Positions 8,157 through 51,315 of a stretch of 64,000 bases of DNA are shown here, one piece after another (within the stretch, counting starts at the first letter, position 1; each line of letters starts with the position of its first letter). A program made the position numbers and the translations under genes. The notes below the pieces were generated by a model. That model made no database searches. It had not been told where the DNA came from and saw only the letters and a program-made list of their open reading frames with translations. Origin of the DNA: Pseudidiomarina aestuarii (GTDB lineage Bacteria; Pseudomonadota; Gammaproteobacteria; Enterobacterales; Alteromonadaceae); the NCBI RefSeq assembly GCF_003987355.1, contig NZ_PIPR01000003.1:62001-126000 (forward strand), written 5' to 3'.

Positions 8157-8160
8157 GTCG

Positions 8161-9432: not shown

Positions 9433-9506
9433 ACCGCCCTTTTGCGCGGCTGTAAGGCTTTTTGGGCGCGAAACAGAATCAATGCGAGAAAGAGTACCTC
9501 ACTATC

Positions 9507-10994: not shown

Positions 10995-11023
10995 AGAGTG
11001 CAGTGCGCTGCAAGGAAGGTGTC

Positions 11024-11395
11024 ATGTCAAAGCGATGGTTCGCTCGGTTATTGTTTGTTTTAGTGTTGATCGGGTTGTCGGTTGCTTTTTTGGCGCAAAT
11101 CCAAGCAAACGCAGTACCACGTTTTGAACATTTGGATAAAGTGGTGCACTTCGTTGCATTCTTTATTTTGGCATGGACCTTTCATCGCGCATTCCCCATT
11201 CCGTGGTGGCTTGCCGTTTTGATTCTGACTGGCTATGGTCTAGCGATTGAGTATATCCAAGGATTGATGCCGTATCGGTCATCGAGCGGTTGGGACTTAG
11301 TGGCCGATGCCGCCGGTGCTGCGACCTACTATAAATGGGCGCTGTGGCGTCATCACCGAAATAAAGCTAAGCGCAAAAGCGAAGCAACGGATTAA
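11024..11395 (+). CDS. VanZ-like family membrane protein
   Basis: Small membrane protein of about 123 residues with three or four hydrophobic segments. The VanZ-like signatures are DKVVHFVAFFILAWTFHRAF, AIEYIQGLMPYRSSSGWDLVADAAGA. Members are of unknown function; VanZ gives low-level teicoplanin resistance in Gram-positives, but that role should not be assumed here. ATG 11024 is chosen because AAGGAAGG lies 7 bases upstream. The stop codon overlaps that of convergent srmB by 3 to 4 bases. Confidence 0.8.
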   Translation: MSKRWFARLLFVLVLIGLSVAFLAQIQANAVPRFEHLDKVVHFVAFFILAWTFHRAFPIPWWLAVLILTGYGLAIEYIQGLMPYRSSSGWDLVADAAGAATYYKWALWRHHRNKAKRKSEATD

Positions 11396-12600: not shown

Positions 12601-12657
12601 CACATTTTCCTGTAAACTAGTGCGCACAATCACGATGACCGAGCGCAATGATTCATT

Positions 12658-15066: not shown

Positions 15067-15086
15067 GACTGGCTCATTCCGTAGAT

Positions 15087-15104
15087 GAAAAAAGGAGTGT
15101 CCTT
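15087..15104 (-). terminator. Weak hairpin with T-run after rdgC
   Basis: On the minus strand AAGGA-CAC-TCCTT is followed by a run of Ts, overlapping the rdgC stop codon. The 5-base stem is short, so this may only attenuate transcription into the peptidase gene. Confidence 0.35.
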
Positions 15105-16011: not shown

Positions 16012-16032
16012 AAAAGTCCTTATTTATCTTCG

Positions 16033-17775
16033 TTAATTTGTTGAGTCGATGAATTGCATGGGCATTTCGAACGTGTATTTGAGTCCTTTGCCCGGTGCCG
16101 CGTCAGCATGAATGACGCCGTTGAGTGTTTGGGTTACTAAGTTGCGCACAATGTGAGTGCCTAATCCCGTACCACCTTGTTGGCGTCGAGTGGTAAAGAA
16201 CGGGTCAAAAATTTTATCGAGTTGCTCTTGGGTCAAGCCTTTGCCGTTATCTGAGTAATCAAAGTGCAGCTTATCGCCATCACGGCGCGCTTGAATGGTG
16301 ATTTCGCCGTGTGATTGATTCTCAAAACCATGAATCAGAGAGTTTTGAATTAAATTAGTAAAAATCTGTGCAATAGCGCCCGCAGGACAACGAATAGTAA
16401 TTGCGGAATCAATATCCAACTGGATGGCATGCTTGGAGTTTTTAAAATGAGGCTGGAGTGCTTGAATGACGTCCTGAAGATATTTCTTCAGATTAATTTC
16501 ACGCACCGCTTCAGAGGTTTGATCGACGGCAACTTGTTTAAAACTGCCAATCAAATCAGATGCCCGAGTCAGGTTATTCTCAAGCAGCGTTAAGCCCTCA
16601 TCACTCTCCTCAAGAAAAGCAGCGAGCTGCACTTGCGTTAGGTTCTTATCTTTCAAGGATTGTTGGAGCTGGTTAATGCGGTCACGAATAAAAGTTGCTG
16701 CAGTAATACTGACACCTATGGGTGTATTCACATCATGCGTGATACCCGCAACCAAACCACCGAGAGAAGCCATCTTCTCCGATTCAATCAACTGCGTTTG
16801 CGCACGTTCCAGTGCCGATAATGAGTTTTGTAGGCGGGTATTGGTTTCACGCAAGTCGCGCTCAATTTCTTGGCGTTGACGAATTTCGCGTTCGAGCTTT
16901 TCTTGTCGTGCTTCAAGCTCTGATTTGCGTCGCTCCAAATCCACCAATACTCCACTCAAACTCGATGTTTTGCGCGCAACTTCCTGCTCAAGTATGGCGT
17001 TCTGATCATCTAACTGTCGATTGACCTGCTCGAACTGCTGTTGTGTTCGGGTCAGGTCGGCTTGATAGTCAGCCAAATTATCAAGCAACTGATTATAGGC
17101 TTGCTCAATCATCGTAAACTCACGATTCCGTTGATTCTTCAAATGAATCTTTGAGCGCGGTAAATCTTCGAGGCGAAACTGACGAATTTGGTTGGTTAAA
17201 TCGAGCATCGGCCGGTTCAGCATACGGTTAAACGCCAGGCTAAACAGTAAAATCAGAAAAGTACTCTTCACCAGCGCGCTACCGAAAATGAAATAGAGCG
17301 TCACTTTGATTCGGTCAATCGCAATATCCCTCGTTGAGAAGAGTGTTACATCGCCTACTTGCGTCGAGTTGCCCGAGAATTCGAACACCAAGGTCGAGAA
17401 GTAACCAAATAGTCCTTCTCGCTCGGGAAGCGTATAACTTTCCATCGGTTCTTGCGGCAGGATGCTCAAAGGCGCCGTACGGCCAAGATTTGCCAACACA
17501 GCACCCGTATCATCACGAATCACCACACCGGATATAGCAGGAATACTTATGAGTCCCTGCGCAATAGCATCAATTTGTGGGTAATTGTATTCCCATAACG
17601 AGCGCCCCAGAGAGTTACTGAAGGTCGCCTGCTGGTTACGTAATTCTTCAACCAATAAATCTTGCGTATCGTAATATTCGCCAACCACTTGGACACCGGT
17701 CACCAGCACTGTCAACACGAAGTAAACAGAGAGAACGCTGGTCAGTAGTGATTTGGAAATACTGGTGGTGGTCAT
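16033..17775 (-). CDS. Orphan membrane sensor histidine kinase
   Basis: About 580 residues. One membrane segment near residues 9-30, a periplasmic sensor region (about 31-165), a second membrane segment (about 168-190), a HAMP-like region and a long coiled coil (about 240-340). The dimerisation box has the phospho-acceptor His in VAGITHDVNTPIG, an unusual HDVNTP instead of HELRTP. The ATPase domain has N-box FTNLIQNSLIHGFE, G1 DNGKGL, F-box PFFTTRRQQGGTGLG. ATG 17775 gives a normal signal-anchor; 22 more in-frame residues upstream look unlikely. No response regulator lies beside it, so its partner and signal are unknown. It is divergent from the phosphate-starvation lipoprotein gene. Confidence 0.85.
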   Translation of the reverse strand: MTTTSISKSLLTSVLSVYFVLTVLVTGVQVVGEYYDTQDLLVEELRNQQATFSNSLGRSLWEYNYPQIDAIAQGLISIPAISGVVIRDDTGAVLANLGRTAPLSILPQEPMESYTLPEREGLFGYFSTLVFEFSGNSTQVGDVTLFSTRDIAIDRIKVTLYFIFGSALVKSTFLILLFSLAFNRMLNRPMLDLTNQIRQFRLEDLPRSKIHLKNQRNREFTMIEQAYNQLLDNLADYQADLTRTQQQFEQVNRQLDDQNAILEQEVARKTSSLSGVLVDLERRKSELEARQEKLEREIRQRQEIERDLRETNTRLQNSLSALERAQTQLIESEKMASLGGLVAGITHDVNTPIGVSITAATFIRDRINQLQQSLKDKNLTQVQLAAFLEESDEGLTLLENNLTRASDLIGSFKQVAVDQTSEAVREINLKKYLQDVIQALQPHFKNSKHAIQLDIDSAITIRCPAGAIAQIFTNLIQNSLIHGFENQSHGEITIQARRDGDKLHFDYSDNGKGLTQEQLDKIFDPFFTTRRQQGGTGLGTHIVRNLVTQTLNGVIHADAAPGKGLKYTFEMPMQFIDSTN

Positions 17776-17850
17776 GAATATCTCGCAATAGGCTTGCGCA
17801 AAAGGTACTGGATTCAGCTCGAATCCGCAATAACAACTCATTGTTTCGAG

Positions 17851-17906
17851 TTGTCACAAAGCATTCATATCGGTGTCACCCCGCTGTCACATTACCCACT
17901 TAAAGT
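17851..17906 (+). promoter_or_regulatory. Pho box array and promoter for the lipoprotein-receptor pair
   Basis: Half-sites TTGTCAC (17851), CATTCAT (17862), GTGTCAC (17873) and CTGTCAC (17884) follow each other every 11 bases. The hexamer TAAAGT (17901-17906) starts exactly 10 bases after the last one, the geometry of a PhoB-activated promoter in which the boxes replace the -35. It is 50 bases before the lipoprotein ATG. Confidence 0.8.
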
Positions 17907-17955
17907 TCACCGCGTAACTTTTGACATACGTCTTACTTTCTCAACGGAGACCGAT

Positions 17956-19434
17956 ATGAAACGCACGAATATTTTTGCTCTGAGCGCTGTAACCGCAGCA
18001 TTATTCCTCGCTGGCTGTGGTGGCGACATCAACTTGACTCCGACGTCTATCGACAATTCAGTCGATAACTCAACCAATAACTCAGGTGGCGGCGGTGCAA
18101 CCAACAACTGTGCTTCTTATGAAGTTGATGGCACTAGCGTACAAGGTGAGAAGATTGGTGCAGATTGTGTCTATCCACGCAGCTTCTCTACTCCAGAAGA
18201 CCCAGTGGTCACGGACATCCGCTTAGTCGAATTACCAGGTGGCGCGCACATTTTCCCAAATGGTTTGTACATTGGCGAAAACGTTGAAGCAACCGCTGAT
18301 GTGAACCGTGAAGGTCCAACATTAACGATTGATGCTGGCGCAACGCTCGCGTTTGAAGATGGCGACTCATTCGTCCGTATCGCGCGTGGCGCGAACATTG
18401 AAGCGAACGGCAACCGTAATGCTCCAATCACGTTTACTTCTGTGCAAGAACTCGACAACCAAATCACTAACCCGAATGCGCGCGGTTTGTGGGGTGGCTT
18501 GGTTATCAACGGCTTCGGTATTTCGAACAAATGTGATCAAAACGATTTAGCGAACTGTGTGCTTCAGGGTGAAGGCGGCGCAGGTTTCTACGGCGGCGAC
18601 GACAATACAGATAGCTCAGGTTCAATTCGCTACGCTTTGGTTAAATACGCAGGTTATGAAGTTTCTTTAGATAACGAGTTGAACGGTATCACGTTCAACG
18701 CAGTAGGCTCGGGTACTAATCTTGAGTACATCCAAGTTCACAACAACTTGGACGATGGTATCGAGTTCTTCGGTGGTGCTGCTAACGTGAAAAACGTAGT
18801 CCTGACTGGTAACGACGATGACTCGTTAGACTGGGCTGACGGTTGGCAAGGTAAAATTCAGTACATCTTGGTGAAGCATGCGGATGACCGCGCAAACCGT
18901 GCTATTGAGGCAGATGGTAACAGCGGTAACAATGACGCAACGCCATTCTCGAATCCGATTATCGCGAACTTCACGTCAATCGGTTCATTGACTGCAACAG
19001 ACGGGTCAGACGAGTCTGAAGGTGTGTTACTCCGTGAAGGTACGCGTGGTGCTCTGTATAACTTCTTGATTACTGATGCACGCGGCGAGTGTTTGGAAAT
19101 TGACCAGGCAACCACCTTGGCAGCAGCACAAGCCGGTGACTTGTCAATTGAAAACTCTATCATCGCCTGTAGCGAAAACTTCGCTGACCAACCAACACAA
19201 GATTGGTTCCAAGGCTATACAACCAACGTGACCTTAGACGAAATGGCGACTGTATTGACTTCAGGTTATGTCACTGCAGCGACTATTTCTGATGCTTCAG
19301 GCGCTGAAGTAACGGTCACACCTAAATCTGATTTAAGCACGATCGACCCATTCTTTGATGATGTTGATTTTATCGGTGCAGTAAGTGAAGACGACGATTG
19401 GACTAACGGCTGGACAGTCGGTCTGCGCGACTAA
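17956..19434 (+). CDS. Beta-helix-type surface or periplasmic lipoprotein, phosphate-starvation partner of the adjacent receptor
   Basis: A 492-residue lipoprotein: lipobox LFLAGC (Cys at about residue 22), a Ser/Asn/Gly linker (35-55), then a domain rich in short hydrophobic/Asn/Asp strands that looks like a right-handed parallel beta-helix (GLWGGLVINGFG, GIEFFGGAANVKNVVLTGNDDDSLDWADGW, GVLLREGTRGALYNFLITD). Asp/Asn-rich loops could bind calcium. ATG 17956 follows CGGAG and gives the lipoprotein signal; 54 in-frame codons upstream cover the Pho box and are rejected. It is directly before a TonB-dependent receptor and behind a Pho box, so a role in capturing a phosphorus-containing substrate for that receptor is inferred. 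No enzyme motif was recognised. Confidence 0.75.
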   Translation: MKRTNIFALSAVTAALFLAGCGGDINLTPTSIDNSVDNSTNNSGGGGATNNCASYEVDGTSVQGEKIGADCVYPRSFSTPEDPVVTDIRLVELPGGAHIFPNGLYIGENVEATADVNREGPTLTIDAGATLAFEDGDSFVRIARGANIEANGNRNAPITFTSVQELDNQITNPNARGLWGGLVINGFGISNKCDQNDLANCVLQGEGGAGFYGGDDNTDSSGSIRYALVKYAGYEVSLDNELNGITFNAVGSGTNLEYIQVHNNLDDGIEFFGGAANVKNVVLTGNDDDSLDWADGWQGKIQYILVKHADDRANRAIEADGNSGNNDATPFSNPIIANFTSIGSLTATDGSDESEGVLLREGTRGALYNFLITDARGECLEIDQATTLAAAQAGDLSIENSIIACSENFADQPTQDWFQGYTTNVTLDEMATVLTSGYVTAATISDASGAEVTVTPKSDLSTIDPFFDDVDFIGAVSEDDDWTNGWTVGLRD

Positions 19435-19448
19435 TCAAAGGAATACTC

Positions 19449-19464
19449 TGCACATGGATGTGCA
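19449..19464 (+). other. Intercistronic hairpin between lipoprotein and receptor genes
   Basis: TGCACAT-GG-ATGTGCA forms a 7-base perfect inverted repeat, flanked by an outer TCAAAG/CTTTGA match. There is no T-run, so it is more likely an RNA stability or partial attenuation element than a terminator. It lies in a 75-base gap without a Pho box, which supports cotranscription of the two genes. Confidence 0.5.
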
Positions 19465-19509
19465 ATCTCTTTGAATCATTACGATTAGTCTACGCATACG
19501 GAGTCTCTC

Positions 19510-22146
19510 ATGAAAAAGCATGCCGTTTTAACCAAAAGCAAGGTTGGGATTGCTGTTGCAATAGCACTCTCTACCCAGCTTGCGGTTGCTCAAGAAGCAG
19601 CTACAGACGCCGCAAGCGCTGCAACCATTGAAGAAGTGGTCACAACAGGTACGCGGTTACAAGGATCGGCCGCAGCAGTTGTCGAAGAACGGAAAGCTCA
19701 AGCGTTCGTTGCCGACATTCTGGGTGCTGAACAAATTTCGCGGACTGGCGACAGTGATGCCGCTTCCGCACTACGCCGTGTTACCGGCCTCACGTTGGTC
19801 GATGGCAAATTTATTTATGTTCGTGGTTTAGGTGAACGTTACTCCAGTACGCAACTGAACGGTGCGTCTGTACCTTCGCCTGATCCGACTCGAAACGTCA
19901 TTCCACTCGATATGTTCCCAGCGAGCATTATTGAAAGTATGTCTGTGCAAAAGTCGTACTCACCAGATATGCCAGCAAACTTTGGCGGTGGTAACGTCGA
20001 CATTCGCACGGTTTCTATTCCTACCGACCAAGTTTTTGAAGTGTCGATTGGTACGGGTTGGGACTCTAACTTTAGTGACGATGGCTTGACCTATGCAGGC
20101 GGCGGTAGTGACTGGAAGGGGACCGACGACGGTTCACGTGCTTTATCGGGTGCGATGACTTCAGCGTTAGCCCGCTACCAAGAAAACATCAACGCTGCGA
20201 ATATTGCGAATGTTGAGGGTATTTCTATTGCTGACGCCCAAGCAATTAACCGCAATTTAGCAGCATCTTTGAATACACAGAATGAAGTCTATACCAAAAG
20301 CCTAAGCCCAGATATTAAAGGCTCAGTCAGTTTTGGCGATAGCTTCGACATCTATGACGATTGGACTTTTGGTTTCCTCGCTGGCGTTGACTATGACAAC
20401 AGTTGGTCCAATAGCGAAGAAACTGAAAAAGTTCTCGGTATCGCCGATGGGCAATCGGTTGTGATTCAAGATGGCGCCTCACGAGTCACCGCACAGACGG
20501 TTGAACTCAGCGGTATTCTAAATTTTGGTTTGCAATACGGTGACTACCACAAGGTAGAAACTTCAACGATATTCCTGCGCAACACGCAAGATCGCGTGGA
20601 ACAGGGTGGTGTTGAAACCGCAAACTCGATTACTGAAAGCAATTTGTCATTCTTCGATACGGATATTCGCTACGAAGAGCGCGAGTTATTGACCAACCAA
20701 GTGCGTGGTTCGCATTTCTTCCCAGAATTGTGGAATATCGCGGTGGATTGGCAATACGCGGAATCTGAAGCCAGTCGTTATGCGCCAGGCGAAGTGTTTT
20801 ATCGACAGATTAGCAACCGTGACTTAGGCGATGGTGTTGGCGATCTAGCATTCCAACAAACGCGTTCAGCAACTACGCTACAGTACCAAGATCTGCAAGA
20901 TGACGCACAAGATTGGCGAGTGGATGTTGAACTGCCATTGTATTTTGATGCGGTAGAAGTATTGGTGAAAGGTGGCGGTCAATTGTCGAAAAAGGCACGT
21001 TCATCATTCTCACGTCGCTTCGCCATTTCGGCCGAAACGGTCGCCAATGATGCGTTACAAGGTGTTGGCTACAACGAGCTGTTCAGCGATAGTAACCTGA
21101 TTGATGAAAACTTCGGCTTTCAATTGTTCGGTGCACCGACAGCAACTGACCCTAACTATCTTGCCGCACAACAGGTTGAAGCAGGCTATGGATTGCTCGA
21201 CATCAATCTGAATAATGATTGGCGCGTGAGTGGTGGTTTGCGTTGGGAGCAGTACACGCAAGTGGCGGCGCAGCTCGACATTCGTAACATGACGGTGATT
21301 GGTGATGTTGCCGAAGCTGGCCGCATTGAGGACGATATTTACGGTAGCATTGCGTTGACGTATCAATTGAACGACGAAATGCAGTTACGTTTTGGTTACG
21401 GTAGCACCGTTGTGCGTCCAGACCTGCGTGAGTTAACTGAAGTGTTGTTCGTTGACCCAATCACTAACTTCAAGGTCCGTGGTAACAGTAACTTGTCGAC
21501 CACTGATATTGATAACTTTGATATGCGTTGGGAATGGTACTTGCCAGCTGGCGAAAACTACTCGGTTGGTTTGTTCTATAAAGATTTGGCAAACCCGATT
21601 GAAGCGGTTGAAGCTAAAGGTACCGACTCAGACCGCGTTATCACTTTCTTGAACGGTCAAGCCGGTGAAGTTTACGGCGTTGAATTTGAGTTCTTGAAAG
21701 ACTTGACTGGATTGCGTGATGGTTTGTTCGTAAGCGGTAACTTGACGTTATCGGATTCGGAAATCAGCATCGCCAATACGGGTAACGTTGAATTGACTAA
21801 CAATACCCGCCGTATGACGGGTCACTCTAAATATGTTGCGAACCTGCAGTTTGGTTACGACTCTTTGGATGGTGAGCACAGTGCATCATTGATTTACAAC
21901 GTTGCGGGCGAGCGGATTGCCTTCGCCGGTGTGAAACAAGGTGAGTTAGGTATTGGTGATGCGTTCGAGCAGCCATTCCATAGTTTGGACTTGGTCTACA
22001 CTTGGTATCCTGACTTTAACTCCAATGTAAAGCTGAAAGTTCAGAATTTACTGGGTGACGATGTCTCCATTGTGCAAGATGGCATCACCATTCAAGAGCG
22101 TTCAGTGGGCACTGGTGTGAGTGTAGAATACAGTTACGCCTTCTAA
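19510..22146 (+). CDS. TonB-dependent outer membrane receptor (phosphate-starvation cluster)
   Basis: An 878-residue outer-membrane transporter that imports a ligand using energy passed by TonB. Signal peptide at about 1-27 (ends VAQ), a TonB-box-like IEEVVTTGTR (about 40-49), a plug domain with ALRRVTGLTLVDGKFIYVRGLGERYSSTQLNGASVPSPD, and a beta-barrel ending in the outer-membrane signature YSYAF. The plug is of the type found in receptors with large substrates. The ligand is unknown; the upstream lipoprotein, the Pho box at 17851 and the nearby Pho-linked TonB operon suggest a phosphorus compound. A strong terminator follows. Confidence 0.9.
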   Translation: MKKHAVLTKSKVGIAVAIALSTQLAVAQEAATDAASAATIEEVVTTGTRLQGSAAAVVEERKAQAFVADILGAEQISRTGDSDAASALRRVTGLTLVDGKFIYVRGLGERYSSTQLNGASVPSPDPTRNVIPLDMFPASIIESMSVQKSYSPDMPANFGGGNVDIRTVSIPTDQVFEVSIGTGWDSNFSDDGLTYAGGGSDWKGTDDGSRALSGAMTSALARYQENINAANIANVEGISIADAQAINRNLAASLNTQNEVYTKSLSPDIKGSVSFGDSFDIYDDWTFGFLAGVDYDNSWSNSEETEKVLGIADGQSVVIQDGASRVTAQTVELSGILNFGLQYGDYHKVETSTIFLRNTQDRVEQGGVETANSITESNLSFFDTDIRYEERELLTNQVRGSHFFPELWNIAVDWQYAESEASRYAPGEVFYRQISNRDLGDGVGDLAFQQTRSATTLQYQDLQDDAQDWRVDVELPLYFDAVEVLVKGGGQLSKKARSSFSRRFAISAETVANDALQGVGYNELFSDSNLIDENFGFQLFGAPTATDPNYLAAQQVEAGYGLLDINLNNDWRVSGGLRWEQYTQVAAQLDIRNMTVIGDVAEAGRIEDDIYGSIALTYQLNDEMQLRFGYGSTVVRPDLRELTEVLFVDPITNFKVRGNSNLSTTDIDNFDMRWEWYLPAGENYSVGLFYKDLANPIEAVEAKGTDSDRVITFLNGQAGEVYGVEFEFLKDLTGLRDGLFVSGNLTLSDSEISIANTGNVELTNNTRRMTGHSKYVANLQFGYDSLDGEHSASLIYNVAGERIAFAGVKQGELGIGDAFEQPFHSLDLVYTWYPDFNSNVKLKVQNLLGDDVSIVQDGITIQERSVGTGVSVEYSYAF

Positions 22147-22165
22147 TGAAAAGTGTAGCAAGTTG

Positions 22166-22191
22166 AAAGGGAGCCGCAGGGCTCCCTTTTT
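22166..22191 (+). terminator. Rho-independent terminator after the TonB-dependent receptor
   Basis: Stem AGGGAGCC / GGCTCCCT with loop GCAG and a following run of five Ts, 20 bases after the receptor stop. It closes the lipoprotein-receptor transcript. Confidence 0.9.
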
Positions 22192-22265
22192 CATGTTGAG
22201 CCCTTGAGACTCTTGGTTTATCGTGTCTATAGGAAACAACCTCAGTAACAGCAGGTGAGAAAAGC

Positions 22266-23543
22266 ATGGATTCAATAGCGCAAGTACAAGCTTGGCTAAG
22301 CGAACGGCCTGACATGGAAACGCTCGCTTATGTGGCATTACTCCTGGTGGGTGCTTGGGTAGCCAACTTTATTGTCAAAAAGATACTGCTGCGTGGTGCG
22401 CTTCGAGTCCTCTCGTTTACTCCGGTTGGCAAAGATCGTCAGTTATTCGAGCGCAATGTCATTGCTCGGCTGGCCAACGTCGTTCCGGCGCTGGTCATTT
22501 CCCATTGGATTGTTGAGGTTCCGAATTTACCGGAAACTCTGGCGATTGTGGTCGACAACGTCGCCATCGCTTTTATTATTCTCACCGTTGCTCGCTCTAT
22601 TAGTGGCGTTTTGACCGTCATTAACACCTTTTATGAACGTGAAGAAGATTCCCATTTGCGGCCAATAAAAGGCTACATCCAAGTGGTGAAGATCGGCATT
22701 TATGCGATTGCTGCAATATTAGTCATCGCTGCTCTCATCGACAAATCCCCGGTTATTCTGTTGTCTGGTTTGGGTGCGATGGCCGCTGTAGTCATGCTGG
22801 TATTTCAAGATACATTGCTGTCCTTGGTTGCCAGCGTGCAAATTTCATCGAATGATATTATCCGCGTGGGTGATTGGGTCGAAATGCCGAACCTCAATGC
22901 CGATGGTGATGTCATTGATATCGCCCTACATCAAGTTAAAGTGCAAAACTGGGATAAAACCATTACGTTTATCCCAACTAAACGCTTTATTTCGGATCCG
23001 TTCAAAAATTGGCGAGGCATGCAAGAATCGGGTGGACGTCGGATTAAACGGAGCTTGTTTCTGGACCAGCAATCGATTCACTTTCTCAGTACCGAAGAAC
23101 GCGACAAACTGCGCAGGTTTCGATTGTTGCAAGATTACTTGAAAACCAAGCAAGAAGAGATTGATGCATGGAATCAAGAACTCAAAGATGCTGGGAAAGA
23201 GCCGGTTAATACGCGCCGAATATCAAACATTGGAACGTTTCGCGCTTATGTTCTGGAGTATCTGAAGAGTCATCCGCACATTCATCAAGACATGACGTTG
23301 ATGGTGCGGCAGTTAAATCCAACCGCAGATGGCTTGCCACTCGAGGTTTATTGTTTCACCAACACCATCAAGTGGACCGAGTATGAGCAAATTCAATCGG
23401 ACATTTTTGACCATTTGTATGCCATTGTGAGTGAGTTCGGCTTGCGCGTATTCCAGCATCCAAGCGGCGTTGATATGCGTAGTTTAGGCGAGGCTTTTAG
23501 TAGGCAGCGCGATACCGAAAAACCCGAACAAAAACAATCATAA
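22266..23543 (+). CDS. MscS-family mechanosensitive channel, YbdG-like
   Basis: A 425-residue inner-membrane channel expected to open under osmotic downshock. Several N-terminal membrane segments (about 20-40, 75-100, 105-125, 140-165) lead to the pore helix and MscS signature LLSGLGAMAAVVMLVFQDTLLSLVASVQI (about residues 165-195), then a cytoplasmic beta domain. The insertion of about 50 charged residues (FLSTEERDKLRRF to EEIDAWNQELKDAGKE) and the overall length match the E. coli YbdG group. No Pho box was seen before it, so it seems to be a bystander between the two Pho-type units. Confidence 0.88.
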   Translation: MDSIAQVQAWLSERPDMETLAYVALLLVGAWVANFIVKKILLRGALRVLSFTPVGKDRQLFERNVIARLANVVPALVISHWIVEVPNLPETLAIVVDNVAIAFIILTVARSISGVLTVINTFYEREEDSHLRPIKGYIQVVKIGIYAIAAILVIAALIDKSPVILLSGLGAMAAVVMLVFQDTLLSLVASVQISSNDIIRVGDWVEMPNLNADGDVIDIALHQVKVQNWDKTITFIPTKRFISDPFKNWRGMQESGGRRIKRSLFLDQQSIHFLSTEERDKLRRFRLLQDYLKTKQEEIDAWNQELKDAGKEPVNTRRISNIGTFRAYVLEYLKSHPHIHQDMTLMVRQLNPTADGLPLEVYCFTNTIKWTEYEQIQSDIFDHLYAIVSEFGLRVFQHPSGVDMRSLGEAFSRQRDTEKPEQKQS

Positions 23544-23572
23544 AGACATTAAAACAGCATAAAAGTGTCACA

Positions 23573-23628
23573 TTGACACATAACTGAAATAAAGCAGTCA
23601 CCAAGCTGTCACACAATTGCCGTATTGT
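23573..23628 (+). promoter_or_regulatory. Pho box array and promoter of the DUF3450/TonB operon
   Basis: Half-sites TTGACAC (23573), CTGAAAT (23584), CAGTCAC (23595) and CTGTCAC (23606) keep an 11-base period. TATTGT (23623-23628) begins 10 bases after the last half-site. An extra GTGTCAC at 23565 is out of register. It drives the gene at 23666 and probably the whole operon to 28660. Confidence 0.78.
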
Positions 23629-23665
23629 GCACTCCATCATTCATCACGATATGTAGGGTGTTGCC

Positions 23666-24442
23666 ATGCGGCTTGTGTCTATTCCTTCTGCGTTTATGCT
23701 GACGCTGTTTTCCACAGCAACAGTATTCGCGCAAGTTCAGTCCCTCGAACCGGTTGTGGATGCTGCTAGCACCATCAACCAATCTGCAAAAAGTTCGCAA
23801 CTCAAAGTGGAAGATATTGCTGACTCCATCCAAGAGCGGATTCAACAGTACAAACAAATTTCACGCCAAATTGATGGACTCAACGTCTACACGCAGCAGT
23901 TGCAGAAGCAACTCGACAATCAAGAAATCGAGAAAGCCGAATTAAATTCGTCGATTGACGAAGTCAGCGTGGTTGAGCGTCAAATCACGCCATTGATGTT
24001 ACGCATGATCGAGAGCCTAGACGCCTTTGTCCGTCTGGATGTCCCATTCCTACCAAATGAACGTAAGGACCGCGTCGCGACCCTTCGCGATTTGATGGAT
24101 CGCGCTGATGTGGATGTATCTGAGAAATTCCGCCGCGTGATGGAAGCCTACCAAATTGAAGCCGATTACGGCCGCAACATTGAAGCGTACAACGGTGCTA
24201 TGGATATCGATGGCCAAGAGCAAGATGTCGAATTCTTGCGTGTGGGGCGTACCGTTTTCATCTACCGCACGCGTGATGGCGGAACCATGGGTGTATGGAA
24301 TCAACAACAACGTGAATGGCAGCCGCTTGATGATAGCTATGGTCGTGACGTGCAAGAAGCATTACGAATCGCTCGTAAGCAGTTAGCACCAGACTTGCTT
24401 ATGTTGCCAATTTTTACTGCTGACTCAGCTGCGGGAGAATAA
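23666..24442 (+). CDS. DUF3450 periplasmic coiled-coil protein of the TonB operon
   Basis: A 258-residue protein with a signal peptide (about 1-19, ending FAQ), followed by a long coiled coil (about 30-100) and a small C-terminal domain with GRTVFIYRTRDGGTMGVWNQ. DUF3450 genes occur as first gene in operons with TonB, ExbB and ExbD in marine gammaproteobacteria; the molecular role is not established, but a periplasmic part in energising or assembling the TonB complex is likely. Its stop overlaps the start of the next gene by one base (TAATG), so translation is coupled. Confidence 0.87.
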   Translation: MRLVSIPSAFMLTLFSTATVFAQVQSLEPVVDAASTINQSAKSSQLKVEDIADSIQERIQQYKQISRQIDGLNVYTQQLQKQLDNQEIEKAELNSSIDEVSVVERQITPLMLRMIESLDAFVRLDVPFLPNERKDRVATLRDLMDRADVDVSEKFRRVMEAYQIEADYGRNIEAYNGAMDIDGQEQDVEFLRVGRTVFIYRTRDGGTMGVWNQQQREWQPLDDSYGRDVQEALRIARKQLAPDLLMLPIFTADSAAGE

Positions 24443-25806
24443 TGATGAAAGGGTTACAAACATTACTTATTGCTTTCGCGGTTGCCATGATGTCAGCGGC
24501 ATCCGCAGCACCGCAAGAACCGGTCGATCTGGATGAGTTGTTGCGGCAATTACAGCAAGGTCAATTTGCACAGTCTGAAGAAAATAAAGAGCGTGAAGCG
24601 CGCTTCCGTGCCGAAGCCGATGAGCAACAGCGTATTCTGCGCGAAGCCATTGCTGAGCGCGATCGTTTAGAGCAGTTAAGTGAGCGTTTAGAAACGCGAT
24701 TCGAGCAAAATGAAGTGGAACTCGGCAACTTAACCGATGCGTTGACCCAGCGCATGGGTTCGCTCCGTGAACTCTTTGGTGTGCTTCAGCAAGTAGCAGG
24801 TGACACCAGCGGCAAGTTGCAAAATTCATACGTTTCTGTGGAATTCCCCGGTCGTAGCGAAAACCTCAGCGAACTCGCACAAAAGATGGGTTCTAGCTCT
24901 AAGCTCGCCTCTATTGAAGAAATTGAGTCCGTTTGGTTTGCACTGCAGCAAGAGATGACTGAGTCGGGCAAGGTTAGTGAGTTCAACACTCAAGTCACCT
25001 TGGCAAATGGCGAAAAAGTAGAGAAAGAAGTGGTACGTATCGGCACCTTTAACATGGTTGCTGACGGCCGCTATCTGGAGTTAGTGCCAGGCACTGACAC
25101 CGTTGCTGAATTAATTCGTCAGCCAGCATCTCGTTTCTTAGATACTGCTGAAGCCGTGCAGACCGAGTCTGCCGATATGGTTAAGTTTGGTTTAGATCCG
25201 ACTGGCGGGTCAATTCTTGGATTACTCGTACAAGCGCCGGATTTAGGTGAGCGTGTCGACCAAGGCGGAACCGTCGGCTATGTCATCTTGGCGTTGGGCC
25301 TCATTGGTTTACTGATTGCGCTGGAGCGTTTCGTTACCTTGACTCTGATGGGTGGCAAAGTGCGCAAGCAGCTGAAAGACACGACTGCTCGTGATGATAA
25401 CCCGTTGGGTCGCGTTATGCAGGTACAAGACAAGTATCCTCAAGTAGATACCGAGACGTTGGAATTGAAACTCAGCGAAGCCATCTTGCGCGAAGTGCCT
25501 AAGATCACACGCAATCTGACCTTCATCAAGATCATCTCGGTGGTGGCACCGTTGCTGGGTCTGCTGGGAACAGTAACGGGCATGATCAACACCTTCCAAG
25601 CCATTACGTTGTTTGGTACTGGCGACCCGAAACTGATGGCAGGCGGTATTTCGCAAGCCTTGGTCACGACGGTCCTTGGTTTGGTAGTTGCCATTCCGAT
25701 GACGCTGTTGTTCGCAACACTCAACACGCGTAGCAAGAACATTGTGCATGTATTGCAAGAGCAGGCTTCGGGCATTATTGCGGAGCGTTCTGAGCGGGGG
25801 CACTAA
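24442..25806 (+). CDS. MotA/TolQ/ExbB-type proton channel with periplasmic coiled coil (TtpC-like)
   Basis: A 454-residue fusion-type channel protein. Signal peptide at about 1-22 (AASAAP), a long helical, Glu/Arg-rich periplasmic region (30-130), a small folded region (130-265), then the ExbB/TolQ domain: membrane segments near 275-297 (VGYVILALGLIGLLIALERF), 350-375 and 400-430, with ISVVAPLLGLLGTVTGMINTFQ as the signature. This is the architecture of TtpC, needed by the TonB2 system of Vibrio. The start may be ATG 24442 or the next codon. The second ExbB follows almost at once. Confidence 0.88.
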   Translation: MMKGLQTLLIAFAVAMMSAASAAPQEPVDLDELLRQLQQGQFAQSEENKEREARFRAEADEQQRILREAIAERDRLEQLSERLETRFEQNEVELGNLTDALTQRMGSLRELFGVLQQVAGDTSGKLQNSYVSVEFPGRSENLSELAQKMGSSSKLASIEEIESVWFALQQEMTESGKVSEFNTQVTLANGEKVEKEVVRIGTFNMVADGRYLELVPGTDTVAELIRQPASRFLDTAEAVQTESADMVKFGLDPTGGSILGLLVQAPDLGERVDQGGTVGYVILALGLIGLLIALERFVTLTLMGGKVRKQLKDTTARDDNPLGRVMQVQDKYPQVDTETLELKLSEAILREVPKITRNLTFIKIISVVAPLLGLLGTVTGMINTFQAITLFGTGDPKLMAGGISQALVTTVLGLVVAIPMTLLFATLNTRSKNIVHVLQEQASGIIAERSERGH

Positions 25807-25808
25807 TT

Positions 25809-26333
25809 GTGTTCATGATCGACTTTTACAGCGCTATTCAGGACTTTATTGAAACCGGTGGTCAGGTACTACTGATCATCGGGGTACTGATTTTTGTGAT
25901 GTGGTTGATGATTCTGGAACGCGTCTTTTACTACGTCAAAGGCCATCGCGAACGGGTTAAATATGTCCGCAGCACTTGGCAAGCAAGAGCCGATAAATCG
26001 TCGTGGAATGCAGAGCAAATACGGCAGGCAATGATTTCCCGTACCGCTATTGCTCTAGGTGGAAATCTACCGATTTTGCAAGCACTTGTAGCCTTGTGCC
26101 CATTGCTCGGTTTGATGGGTACCGTGACTGGCATGATCGAAGTTTTTGACGTGATGGCCGTATCGGGTACTGGGAACGCACGGTCGATGGCGGCAGGCGT
26201 ATCCAAAGCGACGATTCCAACCATGGCAGGCATGGTCGGCGCGCTATCCGGAGTTTTCGCGACTACCTGGTTGCAACGTACAGCGAAGCGCGAGCGATTG
26301 AAGCTCGAAGAACGCTTACTGCTCGAACACTAA
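25809..26333 (+). CDS. exbB: Biopolymer transport protein ExbB
   Basis: Second, compact proton-channel subunit (174 residues) of the TonB energiser. One membrane segment at about 17-37 (GGQVLLIIGVLIFVMWLMILERVF), then the two conserved helices with LVALCPLLGLMGTVTGMIEVFD (about 95-116) and SKATIPTMAGMVGALSGV. The start is GTG 25809, 8 bases after GAGCGGGGG; ATG 25815, two codons on, is an alternative. It overlaps no gene but is 2 bases from the previous stop, so the genes are translated together. Confidence 0.92.
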   Translation: MFMIDFYSAIQDFIETGGQVLLIIGVLIFVMWLMILERVFYYVKGHRERVKYVRSTWQARADKSSWNAEQIRQAMISRTAIALGGNLPILQALVALCPLLGLMGTVTGMIEVFDVMAVSGTGNARSMAAGVSKATIPTMAGMVGALSGVFATTWLQRTAKRERLKLEERLLLEH

Positions 26334-26360
26334 TTCGGTAAGGATGAGGAGTCTCACCCG

Positions 26361-26768
26361 ATGAAACAGCATTTTGCGAATTTAATTGATGAAGAAGAAA
26401 CAGCGATTGATATGACGCCCATGTTGGACGTTGTTTTTATCATGCTGATCTTCTTTATCGTGACCGCGAGCTTTGTGAAAGAGGCGGGCATCGATGTGAA
26501 CCGTCCAGAAGCGTCTACCGCCGTGCAGAAAGACCGCGCCAATATCTTGGTCGCGATCAGCGATACCGGCGAAATTTGGATCAACAAACGTCAAGTCGAT
26601 GCACGTGCAGTACAAGCCAATATTGAACGTTTGTATGCGGAAAACCCGCAAGGTTCAGTGGTGATTCAAGCCGATAAGAAAGCGACCACTGAGACCTTGA
26701 TTAAAGTCATGGATGCAGCCCGCGCAGCCGGTGTATTCGACGTCTCCATTGCAACGCAAGAAGACTAG
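26361..26768 (+). CDS. exbD: Biopolymer transport protein ExbD
   Basis: A 135-residue inner-membrane protein with one membrane segment. The conserved charged start EEETAIDMTPMLDVVFIMLIFFIVTASF contains the Asp of the proton path (D in MLDVVF, about residue 23). The C-terminal periplasmic domain (about 45-135) has NRPEAST and the VVIQADKKA strand common to ExbD. It sits between exbB and tonB with short gaps; ATG 26361 follows a GATGAGGAG sequence. Confidence 0.95.
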   Translation: MKQHFANLIDEEETAIDMTPMLDVVFIMLIFFIVTASFVKEAGIDVNRPEASTAVQKDRANILVAISDTGEIWINKRQVDARAVQANIERLYAENPQGSVVIQADKKATTETLIKVMDAARAAGVFDVSIATQED

Positions 26769-26770
26769 TT

Positions 26771-27379
26771 ATGATGAGATTCTTTGCCGCTTTAGCCGTC
26801 GCACTAGTCGTTACATTAGGATTGTTTTACCTAATGCAATCACTGATCACTGGTGGTGAAGGGGCCATGACGGACCCGCCCCGTGGCAGTGTGCTCGACT
26901 TCGTGCGCGTGAAGCCCGAAGAGGTGGTGCAGGAAAAGGAACGCAAACCCGAGCGTCCGCCAGAGCCAGAAGAGCCGCCACCTGATTTACCGCAACCGCA
27001 GTCAGATACGGTAGCCGAAACCAGTGATGCCGCCGGCTTTGACTTTAGTGCCACGGTTCAAGCCGATACCAACTTGGCGGGTGGCCTCGGCTTAGATACC
27101 AGTGATGGTGAGTATTTACCGATCGTTAAAGTACAAGCGGCTTATCCACGTCGCGCGTTACAGCGTGGCATTGAAGGTTATGTAGTGGTCGAGTTTACAG
27201 TCACACGCCAAGGCACGGTTCGTGACCCGCGTGTAGTTGAAGCGGAGCCGGAGAGTATCTTCGATCAAGCGGCAATGGATGCGGTGTTGAAGTTCAAATA
27301 CAAGCCACGCGTCGTCAACGGTGATGCTGTGGAAGTGGAAGGTGTGCAAAACCGTATTACCTTCGAGATAGATGGTTAA
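26771..27379 (+). CDS. tonB: TonB family energy transducer
   Basis: A 202-residue TonB protein that spans the periplasm and passes energy to outer-membrane receptors. N-terminal membrane anchor at about 5-25, a Pro/Glu/Lys-rich linker (about 55-85: KPERPPEPEEPPPDLPQPQ), and the C-terminal domain from about 115, with YPRRALQRGIEGYVVVEFTVTRQGTVRDPRVVEAEP and FDQAAMDAVLKFKYKPRVVNG. The linker is short compared with E. coli TonB (239 residues in total). It starts 2 bases after the exbD stop. The Pho box at 23573 indicates a phosphate-responsive TonB. Confidence 0.95.
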   Translation: MMRFFAALAVALVVTLGLFYLMQSLITGGEGAMTDPPRGSVLDFVRVKPEEVVQEKERKPERPPEPEEPPPDLPQPQSDTVAETSDAAGFDFSATVQADTNLAGGLGLDTSDGEYLPIVKVQAAYPRRALQRGIEGYVVVEFTVTRQGTVRDPRVVEAEPESIFDQAAMDAVLKFKYKPRVVNGDAVEVEGVQNRITFEIDG

Positions 27380-27394
27380 CCAGAGGATAGCCTC

Positions 27395-28660
27395 ATGAAA
27401 CGTCACATATTTTTAATCGCATTGGTGTTATTTGCAACGTCGTTGCAGGTTGCTGAGTCGCAAGAGCGCAAACGCACACCAGCTTTGCGTGAGCAAGTGT
27501 ATAGCCAGTTGGCGCGCGCGCAAGAGTTAGCTGATGCCGGCGACGTTCAAGCAGGTATCGCTGCATTGCAAAATGTGGAGAGTAAGATCAGCAGCATGAA
27601 TAGCTACGAGCGCGCCATGCTGTGGAACTTCTATGGTTACATGTATTACGGGCAAGACAATATTGAGCGTGCCATTCACTACTTCAGCAAAGTAGTGGAT
27701 GAAGATCCGATTCCAGAGTCACTGCAACAAAATACTTTGTTCAGCCTAGCGCAGTTGGCGCTCGGCGAAGGACGCTATGACGATACCCTAGCATTTTTAG
27801 ATCGTTGGCAAGCGCTGGTCGGTGATGCCGAGCAAACCAAAGCCTTGGTCTTAAAAGCGCAGGCTTTGTATCAACAAGAGGACTACACCAAGGCATTAGC
27901 GCCGATTACTGCTGCTATCGAGAAAGTAGAAGCCGAGGGTAACTACGGTGATGAAAATTGGTACGTCTTGCAACGCGCAATCCATTTCGAGTTGGGTAAT
28001 ACCGAAGCTGTCGCCGATGTGCTAGCCACTATGGTGAAAGCGTTTAATAAGCCTGAGTATTGGGTGCAATTAGCGGGTGTGTATGGACAGCTCGGTCAAG
28101 AAGCCAAGCAATTAGCATTGTTGGAAGCCGCATACCAACAAGGCTTCCTGACCAAAGGTAGCGACTTAATGAACCTCGCGCAAAGCTACTTTTTCAGCGA
28201 TGTCCCATATAAAGCAGGTAAAGTGCTCGAGCGTGGGCTCGAAGAAGGCAAAATCGAGAGTAATTTACGCAATCTGAAAATGTTGGCGCAAAGCTGGGTT
28301 GCCGCTCGCGAGACCGATAAAGCGGTTGCTGCGTTGGAAGCTGCGGCTGCGCTTAGTGACAATGGTGAACTGGATGCGCAACGAGCCCAGGTGCTGATTA
28401 ACGCCGAGCGCAACCAAGAAGCTATTCGTGCGGCTCGTCAAGCGTTAGAAAAAGGCGGTTTGGAGCAACCGGGCAATATGCATTTAGTGATTGGTATGGC
28501 GGAGTTGAATTTAGAAAACTTTAACGAAGCACTCCAGGCATTTGCGCAAGCCAAACAATTTGACGATGTACGCCGTATGGCGAATCAATGGGAACGGTAT
28601 ACGAGCTCAGAAAAAGAGCAACAAGATCGCTTGATTCAGTTGCGTAAATCTTCATCGTAA
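27395..28660 (+). CDS. TPR-repeat periplasmic protein of the TonB operon
   Basis: A 421-residue protein with a signal peptide (about 1-22) and tandem tetratricopeptide-type helical pairs over most of its length (for example MLWNFYGYMYYGQDNIERAI, ALYQQEDYTKALAPITAAIE, NLRNLKMLAQSWVAARETDKAVAALE). Probably a periplasmic scaffold. TPR proteins close many ExbB-ExbD-TonB operons of Vibrio and Shewanella type; the exact partner is unknown. It lies 15 bases after tonB and is the last gene before a new Pho-type promoter. Confidence 0.88.
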   Translation: MKRHIFLIALVLFATSLQVAESQERKRTPALREQVYSQLARAQELADAGDVQAGIAALQNVESKISSMNSYERAMLWNFYGYMYYGQDNIERAIHYFSKVVDEDPIPESLQQNTLFSLAQLALGEGRYDDTLAFLDRWQALVGDAEQTKALVLKAQALYQQEDYTKALAPITAAIEKVEAEGNYGDENWYVLQRAIHFELGNTEAVADVLATMVKAFNKPEYWVQLAGVYGQLGQEAKQLALLEAAYQQGFLTKGSDLMNLAQSYFFSDVPYKAGKVLERGLEEGKIESNLRNLKMLAQSWVAARETDKAVAALEAAAALSDNGELDAQRAQVLINAERNQEAIRAARQALEKGGLEQPGNMHLVIGMAELNLENFNEALQAFAQAKQFDDVRRMANQWERYTSSEKEQQDRLIQLRKSSS

Positions 28661-28722
28661 AATCAATAGTTTGCAATGAAAGTGACGCAAAACTGAAATG
28701 TAAGTGACAAAAAAGATTCATA

Positions 28723-28756
28723 GAGTCATGAAACTGTCATAAAAGTGCCATACCAT
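28723..28756 (+). promoter_or_regulatory. Pho box and promoter of the porin gene
   Basis: Half-sites GAGTCAT (28723), CTGTCAT (28734) and GTGCCAT (28745) are spaced 11 bases apart. Ten bases after CTGTCAT comes the -10-like TACCAT (28751-28756), so the third half-site overlaps the -10. The transcript would have a leader of about 60 bases. Confidence 0.78.
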
Positions 28757-49262: not shown

Positions 49263-49294
49263 TGGCGGTGCAAATAAACGTTTAGGTGAAGCAC

Positions 49295-49981
49295 ATGTCG
49301 AGAAAGATTCTGATTGTTGAAGACGAAGCCCCAATTCGGGAAATGCTCAGTTTCGTCATGGAGCAACATGGTTACCAAGCAGTAGAAGCAGGGGATTACT
49401 CTACTGCTCTTGAGAAAATTATCGAACCCTTTCCAGACATGATTTTGTTGGACTGGATGCTCCCTGGTGGCTCAGGTATACAACTGGCAAAAAAATTAAA
49501 GAGTGATGACTTCACGCGGAGCATTCCCATTATTATGCTGACCGCGCGTGGAGAGGAAGAAGATAAAGTCCGCGGCCTCGAAGTCGGCGCTGATGACTAC
49601 ATCACGAAACCCTTCTCACCAAAAGAGCTGATGGCGCGGATGCGTGCTGTATTTCGCCGCGTGGCTCCAACCGCTTTGGACGAGCCGTTGGAAGTGGAAG
49701 GTTTAAAATTAGATCCAGTCTCGCATCGCGTCACAGGGTTTAATGATCGTTTAGACATGGGTCCTACCGAATTTAAGTTGTTGCACTTCTTTATGACACA
49801 TCCTGATCGGGTGTATAGTCGTGAGCAATTACTGGATCAAGTATGGGGAACCAACGTCTATGTGGAAGACCGCACGGTTGATGTTCACATTCGACGCCTA
49901 CGTAAAGCAATTTCAATGCATGGTCATGACCGCTTGGTACAAACCGTGCGTGGAGTCGGTTATCGGTTCTCTCATCGCTAA
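49295..49981 (+). CDS. phoB: Phosphate regulon response regulator PhoB
   Basis: Transcription activator of the phosphate regulon. 228 residues: receiver domain with acidic pocket VEDE (9-11), phospho-acceptor Asp53 in [11 protein letters not shown], switch Thr in [12 protein letters not shown] and Lys in [10 protein letters not shown]; then an OmpR-type winged helix (about 130-228) with [32 protein letters not shown] as the recognition region. ATG 49295 has AGGTGA upstream and matches the family start; GTG 49286 is less likely. phoR follows 17 bases after. Confidence 0.97.
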
Positions 49982-49998
49982 GTTAAAGCGACGTAGCG

Positions 49999-51315
49999 AT
50001 GGATAAAAAATACTCCATTCTGTTTATCCTTCGAGGCCTACTGTGGTTCCTAATCCCAGTGGGCTTGTTCGGTTGGTTGCTAGGTTTGTTTTGGGAAATA
50101 CTGGCGCTAGCGCTGCTCGGACTCGTAGTCTGGCACTATTTCTACCAATACAAACTGGTCGATTGGTTGTGGCATCGCCGTACGCTGTTACCGCCCAGTG
50201 CTCCGGGCAGTTGGAGCTACATCTACGACGGTATTTATCGAACCCAACGCCGCAGTCAACAGCGCCGACGCGCGTTAGCTCGGTTATTACGACGTTTTCG
50301 CGAAGCTTCAGAAGCGATTCCCGATGCAGCCATTGTCTTTCGCAAAGACGGCGGGTTGATTTGGTGCAACAAGCTGGGGCAATTTTACTTCGGCTTAAAA
50401 TGGCCAGCCGACACCGGTATTCGTCTCTCTAACTTGATCCGTCATCCAGAGTTTATCGCTTACTTACAAAAGGGCGATTTCAGCGATGACATTCATTTAC
50501 CGTCGCCGGTTCGTGAAGATATTGAGCTCGAGATCCGAATTATGCCGTACAGCGATGATCAGTACCTATTGATGGCACGTGATGTCACGCAACTGCGCCA
50601 GTTGGATCAAATGCGCAAAGACTTCGTCGCCAACGTCTCTCATGAATTGAAAACACCTTTAACTGTATTGCAGGGCTATCTAGAAATGCTGGATGATGCC
50701 AGTGGCATGCCTGCTGAGATGCATCGCAAAGCGGTGCGCGATATGAATGCGCAAAGTACCCGGATGCGTAATTTAGTCGATCAACTGTTGTCTTTATCAC
50801 GCATGGATATCACCCGCGGTGATATTTTTGACCGCGTCGTCGACGTGCCGAAATTGCTGACGACCATTCAAGCCGACGCCGAACGACTGAATGCCGAACG
50901 TGGACACGAACTGGTCTTTGAAATCAGCTCAGAAAAACTCTACGGTCACGAAGATGAAATGCGCAGCGTGTTATCTAACTTGGTAACGAACGCCATTCAT
51001 TATACGCAGCCAGGTGGTCGCATTGTCGTGCGCTGGCGACCAGTGAATCAGCAAATGGAATTCAGTGTCTCTGACAATGGGCCGGGCATTCCCGCCGAAC
51101 ATATCCCTCGGCTTACTGAGCGCTTTTATCGAATCGATAAAGACCGCAACAGTAAAACCGGTGGTTCAGGGTTGGGGTTAGCGATTGTCCAGCAGGCGCT
51201 GGAACATCATCACTGCAAACTCAACATTGATTCCGTAGTAGGGCGTGGGTCGACGTTCTCATTTCGGGCCCCGGAAGAACTTGTCGTTCGTGACACTTTA
51301 TTGAAACAAATATGA
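49999..51315 (+). CDS. phoR: Phosphate regulon sensor histidine kinase PhoR
   Basis: Inner-membrane kinase/phosphatase of PhoB, controlled by the Pst-PhoU complex. 438 residues: two N-terminal membrane helices (about 7-50), a charged linker, a PAS domain (about 100-190, IPDAAIVFRKDGGLIWCNKL), the HisKA box with phospho-acceptor His215 in NVSHELKTPLTVLQGY, and HATPase_c with NLVTNAIHYT, DNGPGIP and GGSGLGLAI. Length and order match E. coli PhoR (431). The last bases run into the pstS Pho box region. Confidence 0.97.
   Translation: MDKKYSILFILRGLLWFLIPVGLFGWLLGLFWEILALALLGLVVWHYFYQYKLVDWLWHRRTLLPPSAPGSWSYIYDGIYRTQRRSQQRRRALARLLRRFREASEAIPDAAIVFRKDGGLIWCNKLGQFYFGLKWPADTGIRLSNLIRHPEFIAYLQKGDFSDDIHLPSPVREDIELEIRIMPYSDDQYLLMARDVTQLRQLDQMRKDFVANVSHELKTPLTVLQGYLEMLDDASGMPAEMHRKAVRDMNAQSTRMRNLVDQLLSLSRMDITRGDIFDRVVDVPKLLTTIQADAERLNAERGHELVFEISSEKLYGHEDEMRSVLSNLVTNAIHYTQPGGRIVVRWRPVNQQMEFSVSDNGPGIPAEHIPRLTERFYRIDKDRNSKTGGSGLGLAIVQQALEHHHCKLNIDSVVGRGSTFSFRAPEELVVRDTLLKQI

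Follow-up and report, generated by a model that had tools for sequence, protein, structure and literature searches.

The 64-kb stretch of DNA analysed here (the window; contig NZ_PIPR01000003.1, positions 62,001 to 126,000, in the 2.64-Mb genome of Pseudidiomarina aestuarii) contains two neighbouring operons, one for a lipoprotein and a TonB-dependent receptor and the other for a TonB energising set, and an array of four 11-bp PhoB half-sites lies upstream of each. In the first operon, a lipoprotein that is most likely of the ElpS type (17956..19434, + strand), with lipobox LAGC followed by Gly and a right-handed beta-helix as modelled fold, precedes the receptor (19510..22146, +), in which Pfam recognises Plug and barrel domains, a TIGR01782-like match falls under the cut-off and the segment IEEVVTTG resembles a TonB box. 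Array 1 (17851..17894, +; half-sites, in order, TTGTCACAAAG CATTCATATCG GTGTCACCCCG CTGTCACATTA) is located 105 bp upstream of the lipoprotein start, between this gene and a divergent sensor histidine kinase (16033..17841, −; CHASE5 match under cut-off), a position from which it may serve the kinase as well as the lipoprotein.

The second operon, entirely on the + strand, encodes a TtpB-like protein (23666..24442; DUF3450, PF11932), a TtpC-like protein with a DUF3450-like N-terminus fused to a MotA/TolQ/ExbB channel (24442..25806), ExbB (25809..26333; Pfam), ExbD (26361..26768; membrane-helix Asp in DMTPMLDVVF), TonB (26771..27379; PF03544 C-terminal domain complete) and a TtpD-like TPR protein (27395..28660). 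The gene order is thus that of the Ttp-type sets, ttpB-ttpC-exbB-exbD-tonB-ttpD, and Vibrio TtpD is a TPR protein. Array 2 (23573..23616, +; TTGACACATAA CTGAAATAAAG CAGTCACCAAG CTGTCACACAA) lies 93 bp upstream of ttpB and is followed by a candidate −10 hexamer, TATTGT (23623..23628, +).

Pho arrays upstream of both operons

Four-half-site matches were scored on both strands of the window with a weight matrix based on the Escherichia coli Pho box. Arrays 1 and 2, with scores of 27.0 and 27.6, were the top two matches, while the best scores of 60 Markov-simulated 64-kb windows averaged 18.0 and never exceeded 22.1. The only other site of the window above this simulated null lies before pstC (25.5). 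The promoters of pstS, of two Oar-like receptors and of a porin at 28.8 kb have weaker Pho boxes, and that of phoB carries a weak one (p=0.022 for four half-sites). No Pho box was detected in the scanned promoters of guaB, xseA, purL, an M49 peptidase, mscS and the receptor.

The presumed regulators, phoB and phoR, are encoded in the same window (49286..51315, +; TIGR02154 362 bits and NF008235 518 bits, both over cut-off). Together with pstS they occupy 49.3-52.4 kb, each past the cut-off of a curated model, and pstC, pstA, pstB and phoU, recognised by reading their translations, lie downstream of pstS, so that the Pho and pst genes span 49.3-59.8 kb. An AsnC-type regulator (translation read) and AsnA (Pfam), at 52523-54133, split the pst genes between pstS and pstC. 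Pho-like half-sites at 28671-28755 precede the porin, which immediately follows the TonB operon and starts at 28790. The two Oar-like TonB receptors (CarboxypepD_reg plus barrel; 40789-47821, −, and 47951-49210, +) have two-half-site Pho-like boxes, and the second is divergent from an endonuclease/exonuclease/phosphatase-family protein adjoining phoB.

The arrays are conserved within the genus. An orthologue of the window-class TtpB (67-79% identity) is present in 23 of the 24 same-genus genomes, the window's own included, and an array precedes ttpB in all 23 (score 22.4-29.8); its distance to the first ATG is 91-94 bp in 22 of them and 120 bp in one. Inside these 23 arrays the T, G, C and A of the half-site core reach 1.63 bits versus 1.06 at positions 8-11, with 0.77 bits in the upstream and 0.99 bits in the downstream flank, although part of the core excess comes from selecting the top-scoring match in every promoter. 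After the last half-site, 14 of 17 aligned ttpB promoters read GTATC-TTGC and two read GTATT; this element is likely the −10. A second DUF3450 operon, whose paralogous protein shares 33-37% identity, was found in 23/24 same-genus genomes, and the promoters of paralogue loci (seven, five of them same-genus) gave no score above 17.0, the array being absent in 5/5 same-genus cases. As for the lipoprotein, all 11 close orthologues carry the array (score 21.1-27.0). Among the distant orthologues, 9 of the 11 readable promoters score at least 18.2 (in eight of them the other strand gives the best match), L021 and L025 fall below 18.2 and the promoter of L028, with its start cut, was unreadable. L021, from congener G009, shares its best-scoring stretch with the lipoprotein promoter of L126, a Pseudidiomarina indica MAG, which makes Pseudidiomarina the probable genus.

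Outside the genus, the lipoprotein loci examined were the best 80 of at least 579, which is not an even sample. A window-type ttpB lies in the flank of 11 of these 80 loci and in three plasmid records retrieved through the lipoprotein. In these 14 loci the array before ttpB reached p<0.05 in every case and p<0.01 in 13, and with two more plasmid records an array precedes ttpB of this class in 16/16, its best match being on the minus strand in four (L102, L107, L111, L120). Lipoprotein promoters of the same sample reached p<0.05 in 50/79 and p<0.01 in 43/79, compared with 38/277 and 17/277 for other genes of the same loci, a control set whose rate is raised by the inclusion of PhoD, gspC and the kinase of the module. 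By contrast with the window class, 13 TtpB of other kinds (five same-genus paralogues, two from other orders, five from Vibrionaceae and one from Aeromonas) gave a maximum of 17.0 and no p<0.01, with four (L057, L058, L063, L178) at nominal p<0.05. The 39 array-bearing proteins of a TtpB tree with 52 rows fell on one side of one branch (100/99), where "array" means a score of at least 18.5 and p<0.01, thresholds set after seeing the promoter scores. The TtpB of Aeromonas caviae, which has no array, sits on a long branch next to the array clade, and the paralogue and Vibrionaceae proteins lie apart from it. Not included in the tree were L061, which is the gene of L005 again, and four remote TtpB with a hidden Markov model score below 150.

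The divergent histidine kinase is likely a further member of the module. It adjoins the lipoprotein in 10/11 close congeners. In six loci outside the genus (four of Alteromonas, one of Salinimonas and one of a Colwelliaceae) the module is accompanied by a relative of the kinase (44-49% identity over most of the length), and in four of them (L102, L107, L120, L176) the kinase promoter has an array.

An earlier interpretation made from the letters of the window only (the sequence-only reading) had located Pho-type arrays at 17851 and 23573, and both were recovered there. It had also proposed that the two operons are under PhoB control, and had named the absence of arrays from orthologous loci as the result that would count against this proposal; in that comparison, which came out in favour of PhoB control, the array before ttpB was present in 23/23 congeners and 16/16 loci outside the genus. 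Tandem 11-bp half-sites upstream of the genes, beyond chance and conserved, are what is expected of Pho regulon members. Overall, the comparative evidence, as strong as sequence allows, makes it very likely that both operons are controlled by PhoB. That the arrays are chance matches, or sites of another OmpR-family regulator that could look alike, is very improbable. The background promoters at p<0.01, a matrix based on E. coli and a two-half-site pattern that is not enriched genome-wide would fit it, but it is opposed by conservation in a fixed register, by linkage to phoBR, by similar boxes before a phosphatase-like gene and the pst genes of the genome, and by the identity of several of the strongest background matches (PhoD, gspC, the module's kinase).

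Pairing of the TonB set with the lipoprotein and the receptor

To define the class, TtpB proteins with at least 52% identity to that of the window were sought in 197 genomes of the order. Fourteen genomes carry such a protein and all 14 have the lipoprotein, on one contig and within ~25 kb of ttpB in 12. Window-class TtpB was found in none of the 165 genomes that lack a strong match to the lipoprotein, seven of which have a 42-45% TtpB relative. Eight of the 24 same-genus genomes were examined for the receptor and the Oar-like receptors, and one of these congeners (G004) lacks the lipoprotein, the receptor and the window-class ttpB while having two Oar-like receptors.

The module is contiguous in Alteromonas, Salinimonas, Aestuariibacter, Catenovulum, Litorilituus and Pseudoalteromonas. 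In Pseudoalteromonas the six-gene set comes immediately before the lipoprotein-receptor pair, and in Alteromonas, Salinimonas and a Colwelliaceae phoB-phoR-pstS stands at the head of the module. The order on Alteromonas pBGP9 is phoB-phoR-pstS-like-2-oxoglutarate (2OG) oxygenase-lipoprotein-receptor-six-gene set; this Alteromonas macleodii plasmid (L176), typed as non-mobilizable, holds in 7804-24137 an entire Pho sensing and import island. The sequence-only reading had suggested looking for the same gene order with Pho boxes in other Alteromonadales; its pairing of the TonB set with this receptor and lipoprotein gained strong comparative support (14/14 genomes, with G004 lacking all three). 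Taken together, the transport unit looks dedicated, and the six-gene set is likely to energise this receptor. An MscS-like channel gene (22266..23543) between the receptor and ttpB was considered as a module member and rejected, having no array of its own, and in G020 the receptor and ttpB matches are only ~180 bp apart.

A wider unit was seen in distant bacteria. Eight of the 80 loci (L119, L136, L139, L141, L156, L159, L163, L171), from Deltaproteobacteria, Methylothermaceae, Planctomycetota and unnamed bacteria and all of them metagenome-assembled genomes (MAGs) or uncultured assemblies, carry, adjacent to the lipoprotein and receptor, divergent genes resembling those for TtpC, ExbD and TonB, except that L141 gave no tonB match. 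A Methylothermaceae MAG shows one run, lipoprotein-DUF3450-ExbB-ExbB-ExbD-TonB-TPR-receptor. In L139, Pfam confirms DUF3450, ExbB, ExbB, ExbD, TonB, TPR and a CarboxypepD_reg receptor after the lipoprotein, with gaps of at most ~110 bp, and the layout of L119 agrees, its ExbB coming from tblastn only. For L171, ExbB (twice), TonB, TPR and receptor were confirmed and ExbD was found by tblastn; a separate DUF3450 gene was not seen there. The lipoprotein of L139 has a strong array (23.6), those of L119 and L171 have none in their promoters, and L119 carries a divergent PhoB/PhoR-like pair that stays under curated cut-offs. These loci suggest, tentatively and at somewhat less than even odds, a distinct class of phosphorus-devoted TonB machine, in which lipoprotein, receptor and six genes would have evolved as one eight-gene unit, a single run in the Methylothermaceae MAG and, as far as tested, in a Deltaproteobacteria MAG, and split in Alteromonadales into two PhoB-driven operons plus a sensor kinase, to import a high-molecular-weight phosphorus compound too big for porins.

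The lipoprotein itself has no Pfam or NCBIfam match. Its signal-peptidase II lipobox and the TonB receptor as next gene are the marks of the ElpS family, and its homologues in Xanthomonas arboricola (L165, 36% identity) and Maricaulis (L113, 41%) stand in lipoprotein-receptor pairs with gspC-gspD-gspE downstream, as published for cc0170/cc0171; the assignment as ElpS type goes through this gene context of relatives rather than through comparison to CC0170. In both loci an array precedes gspC, downstream of the receptor (L165, position 14015, 21.3; L113, position 14138, 20.1). In L133, too, a gene that comes after the receptor has a Pho-type array in front of it (~6504), and in L127 a PhoD phosphatase with a strong array (456-2222) is encoded 6 kb before a Shewanella lipoprotein-receptor pair. 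The beta-helix model, built from a 26-row alignment, reached a predicted local distance difference test score (pLDDT) of 85.7 and a predicted template modelling score (pTM) of 0.87. Its fold neighbours, NosD, alginate epimerases, polysaccharide lyases and tailspikes, were tied at Z ~19-23; a Foldseek search with the model gave no match at E <=0.001 and a sequence search of the PDB with the lipoprotein profile gave 0 matches. The lipoprotein contains invariant Asp/Glu residues, and its domain is often repeated in relatives, with two copies in frames of 907-965 amino acids and three in frames of up to 1382 (duplications and triplications are exemplified by L030, L176 and G196). A SusD-like cap, as in SusCD/PusCD, was discarded in view of the missing Pfam match and the confident beta-helix model.

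A proposed Pho-regulated import module and its alternatives

Dissolved organic phosphorus is an important source of phosphorus in the sea and, to our knowledge, little is understood of how marine bacteria move compounds that exceed the size limit of porins across the outer membrane. Building on the arrays, their conservation, the gene content, its co-occurrence and the predicted fold, all read from the sequence, we propose that the window encodes an outer-membrane import module of the Pho regulon, to which we assign a probability of roughly 0.72. When phosphate is exhausted, phosphorylated PhoB would bind the four-half-site arrays and turn on both the operon of the ElpS-type beta-helix lipoprotein and TonB-dependent receptor and that of the dedicated energiser ttpB-ttpC-exbB-exbD-tonB-ttpD. 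The lipoprotein, presumably on the outer face of the outer membrane, would capture or present a phosphorus-bearing ligand and the receptor would carry it across, with ExbB/ExbD/TonB feeding proton-motive force through the TonB box of the receptor and TtpB, TtpC and TtpD acting as accessories. Such a module in Alteromonas, Pseudoalteromonas and relatives, made of a Pho-regulated dedicated TonB energiser, a receptor and a lipoprotein, would provide named genes and a ligand to seek.

Several observations weigh against this proposal. The weight matrix was not fitted to this genome, and a strict two-half-site pattern is not enriched genome-wide (4 matches versus 3 for the reversed control). The four sites are array 1, the pstS promoter, one before a gene labelled alkaline-phosphatase-like from its translation and one flanked by a LysR-type regulator and a hydrolase; the Pho signal resides in the four half-sites and their conservation, not in the two-half-site pattern. 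In the sample from outside the genus, 29/79 lipoprotein promoters do not reach p<0.05, seven of which come from named Gammaproteobacteria, including Alteromonas L107, L120 and L176. Eighteen of the 32 genomes with the lipoprotein are without the window TonB class, so that the receptor can use another TonB; of the 14 genomes that do have it, 13 belong to a single family. The fold offers no function for the lipoprotein, there being no clear winner among its beta-helix neighbours. Finally, the Caulobacter receptor CC0171 is reported to be constitutive (PMC2996285).

The alternative that survives best, unlikely as it is, is the import of a cargo without phosphorus, such as a metal complex, a cofactor of PhoX/PhoD or a glycan, needed only in phosphate starvation. 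The beta-helix is common to polysaccharide lyases, epimerases, tailspikes and NosD, which it does not separate, the invariant Asp/Glu of the lipoprotein would suit a metal, and relatives may bind or hydrolyse plant glycans according to the authors of PMC8115612. Against such a cargo, the phoBR, pst and phosphatase neighbours suggest phosphorus supply, and iron control of either operon was rejected because a consensus scan gave no Fur box (p=0.77 and 0.27); the best match before ttpB, 11/19 with p=0.77, does not mark the set as TonB2 proper. The same scan gave 15/19 (p=0.01) in one Vibrio locus, L179, and nothing clear in the other five loci. On balance, the evidence leans towards a phosphorus-bearing ligand.

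It is considerably less probable that the receptor and the TonB set export the lipoprotein or a partner enzyme to the surface, or free it, in the manner of Oar/PopC. The receptors of L119, L139 and L171 carry CarboxypepD_reg domains, which we take to be an Oar-like trait, but that of the window has only Plug and barrel in Pfam. Relatives of ElpS adjoin type II secretion genes in Xanthomonas and Maricaulis, neighbourhoods that need no TonB set next door, and most TonB receptors import. Export has precedents in Myxococcus xanthus, where Oar with ExbB/ExbD/TonB is required for secretion of the protease PopC (PMC6434023), and in ElpS, which is released from the cell and whose overproduction accompanies more secreted phosphatase activity (PMC2996285). 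Weighing these points, import is the probable direction.

Equally improbable is a general-purpose second TonB set, raised in starvation and serving many receptors, the two Oar-like ones of the window included. The two-half-site Pho-like boxes of these receptors would fit it, as would the 7/197 genomes that have a 42-45% TtpB relative without the lipoprotein. However, TtpB of at least 52% identity never occurs without the lipoprotein in the 197 genomes, and G004, with its two Oar-like receptors and without the TonB set, lipoprotein and receptor, argues against the six-gene operon serving Oar-like receptors.

Comparison with known systems

Pho-controlled pairs of ElpS-type lipoprotein and receptor are already known. 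ElpS (CC0170) of Caulobacter crescentus (PMC2996285) and the lipoproteins FI/FII of Flavobacterium johnsoniae (PMC8115612) are induced by phosphate starvation, and Caulobacter also has TonB receptors under PhoB control (PMC11208175). As in the window, ElpS/CC0171 and FI/FII are lipoproteins beside TonB-dependent receptors, and FII belongs to a phoBR cluster (PMC2996285, PMC8115612). Unlike in the window, the available parts of these two papers, in which "ExbB" occurs 0 times, describe no TonB/ExbB/ExbD set with them, and type II secretion genes adjoin the ElpS locus where the window has the energiser. Flavobacterium PusCD likewise combines a low-phosphate-induced TonB receptor with a surface lipoprotein, which is SusD-like whereas that of the window is modelled as a beta-helix, and no dedicated TonB set is described for it in the available text (PMC8115612).

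A regulatory precedent is exbB2-exbD2-tonB4 (PUMA3) of Pseudomonas aeruginosa, whose promoter is bound by PhoB (PMC4971064, PMC7035377, PMC12186492) and depends on PhoB and sigma-VreI (PMC4971064, PMC7035377). The sequence-only reading had taken TonB systems to be, as a rule, iron-linked or constitutive, a premise that this promoter shows not to be absolute (PMC4971064, PMC7035377). Like the window operon, PUMA3 is a TonB energiser with a pho box, there mapped and bound by PhoB, but it consists of three genes, also needs sigma-VreI and has no DUF3450 or TPR partner named in the available parts of the reports (PMC4971064, PMC7035377). It sits with a two-partner secretion system and PA0696-PA0701 and is called uncharacterised in PMC7035377. 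No sigma-VreI/VreR/VreA unit was seen when the translated open reading frames of 10-64 kb of the window were read by eye, without profile searches for sigma and anti-sigma factors. This PhoB-dependent set and the Caulobacter receptors lower the novelty of our finding. A PhoB-controlled six-gene Ttp set was not recognised among the titles listed from the open-licence PMC literature and, as far as that literature was searched, what is new is a dedicated six-gene Ttp-type energiser in the Pho regulon, partnered with an ElpS-type pair and a conserved kinase.

In gene order the window set equals the Vibrio TonB2 and TonB3 (Ttp) systems, with ttpB (DUF3450), ttpC, exbB, exbD, tonB and ttpD (PMC6957404), the five Vibrionaceae and one Aeromonas TtpB sampled being outside the array clade and without arrays. 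Vibrio TonB2 differs from the window set in being controlled by Fur and moving siderophores, while TonB3, headed by a receptor, is reported to be free of iron regulation and has, in the available text, no iron-related product found so far (PMC6957404). With the module described here, Ttp-type TonB sets would have a wider role than iron alone, an idea that could be tested for Vibrio TonB3.

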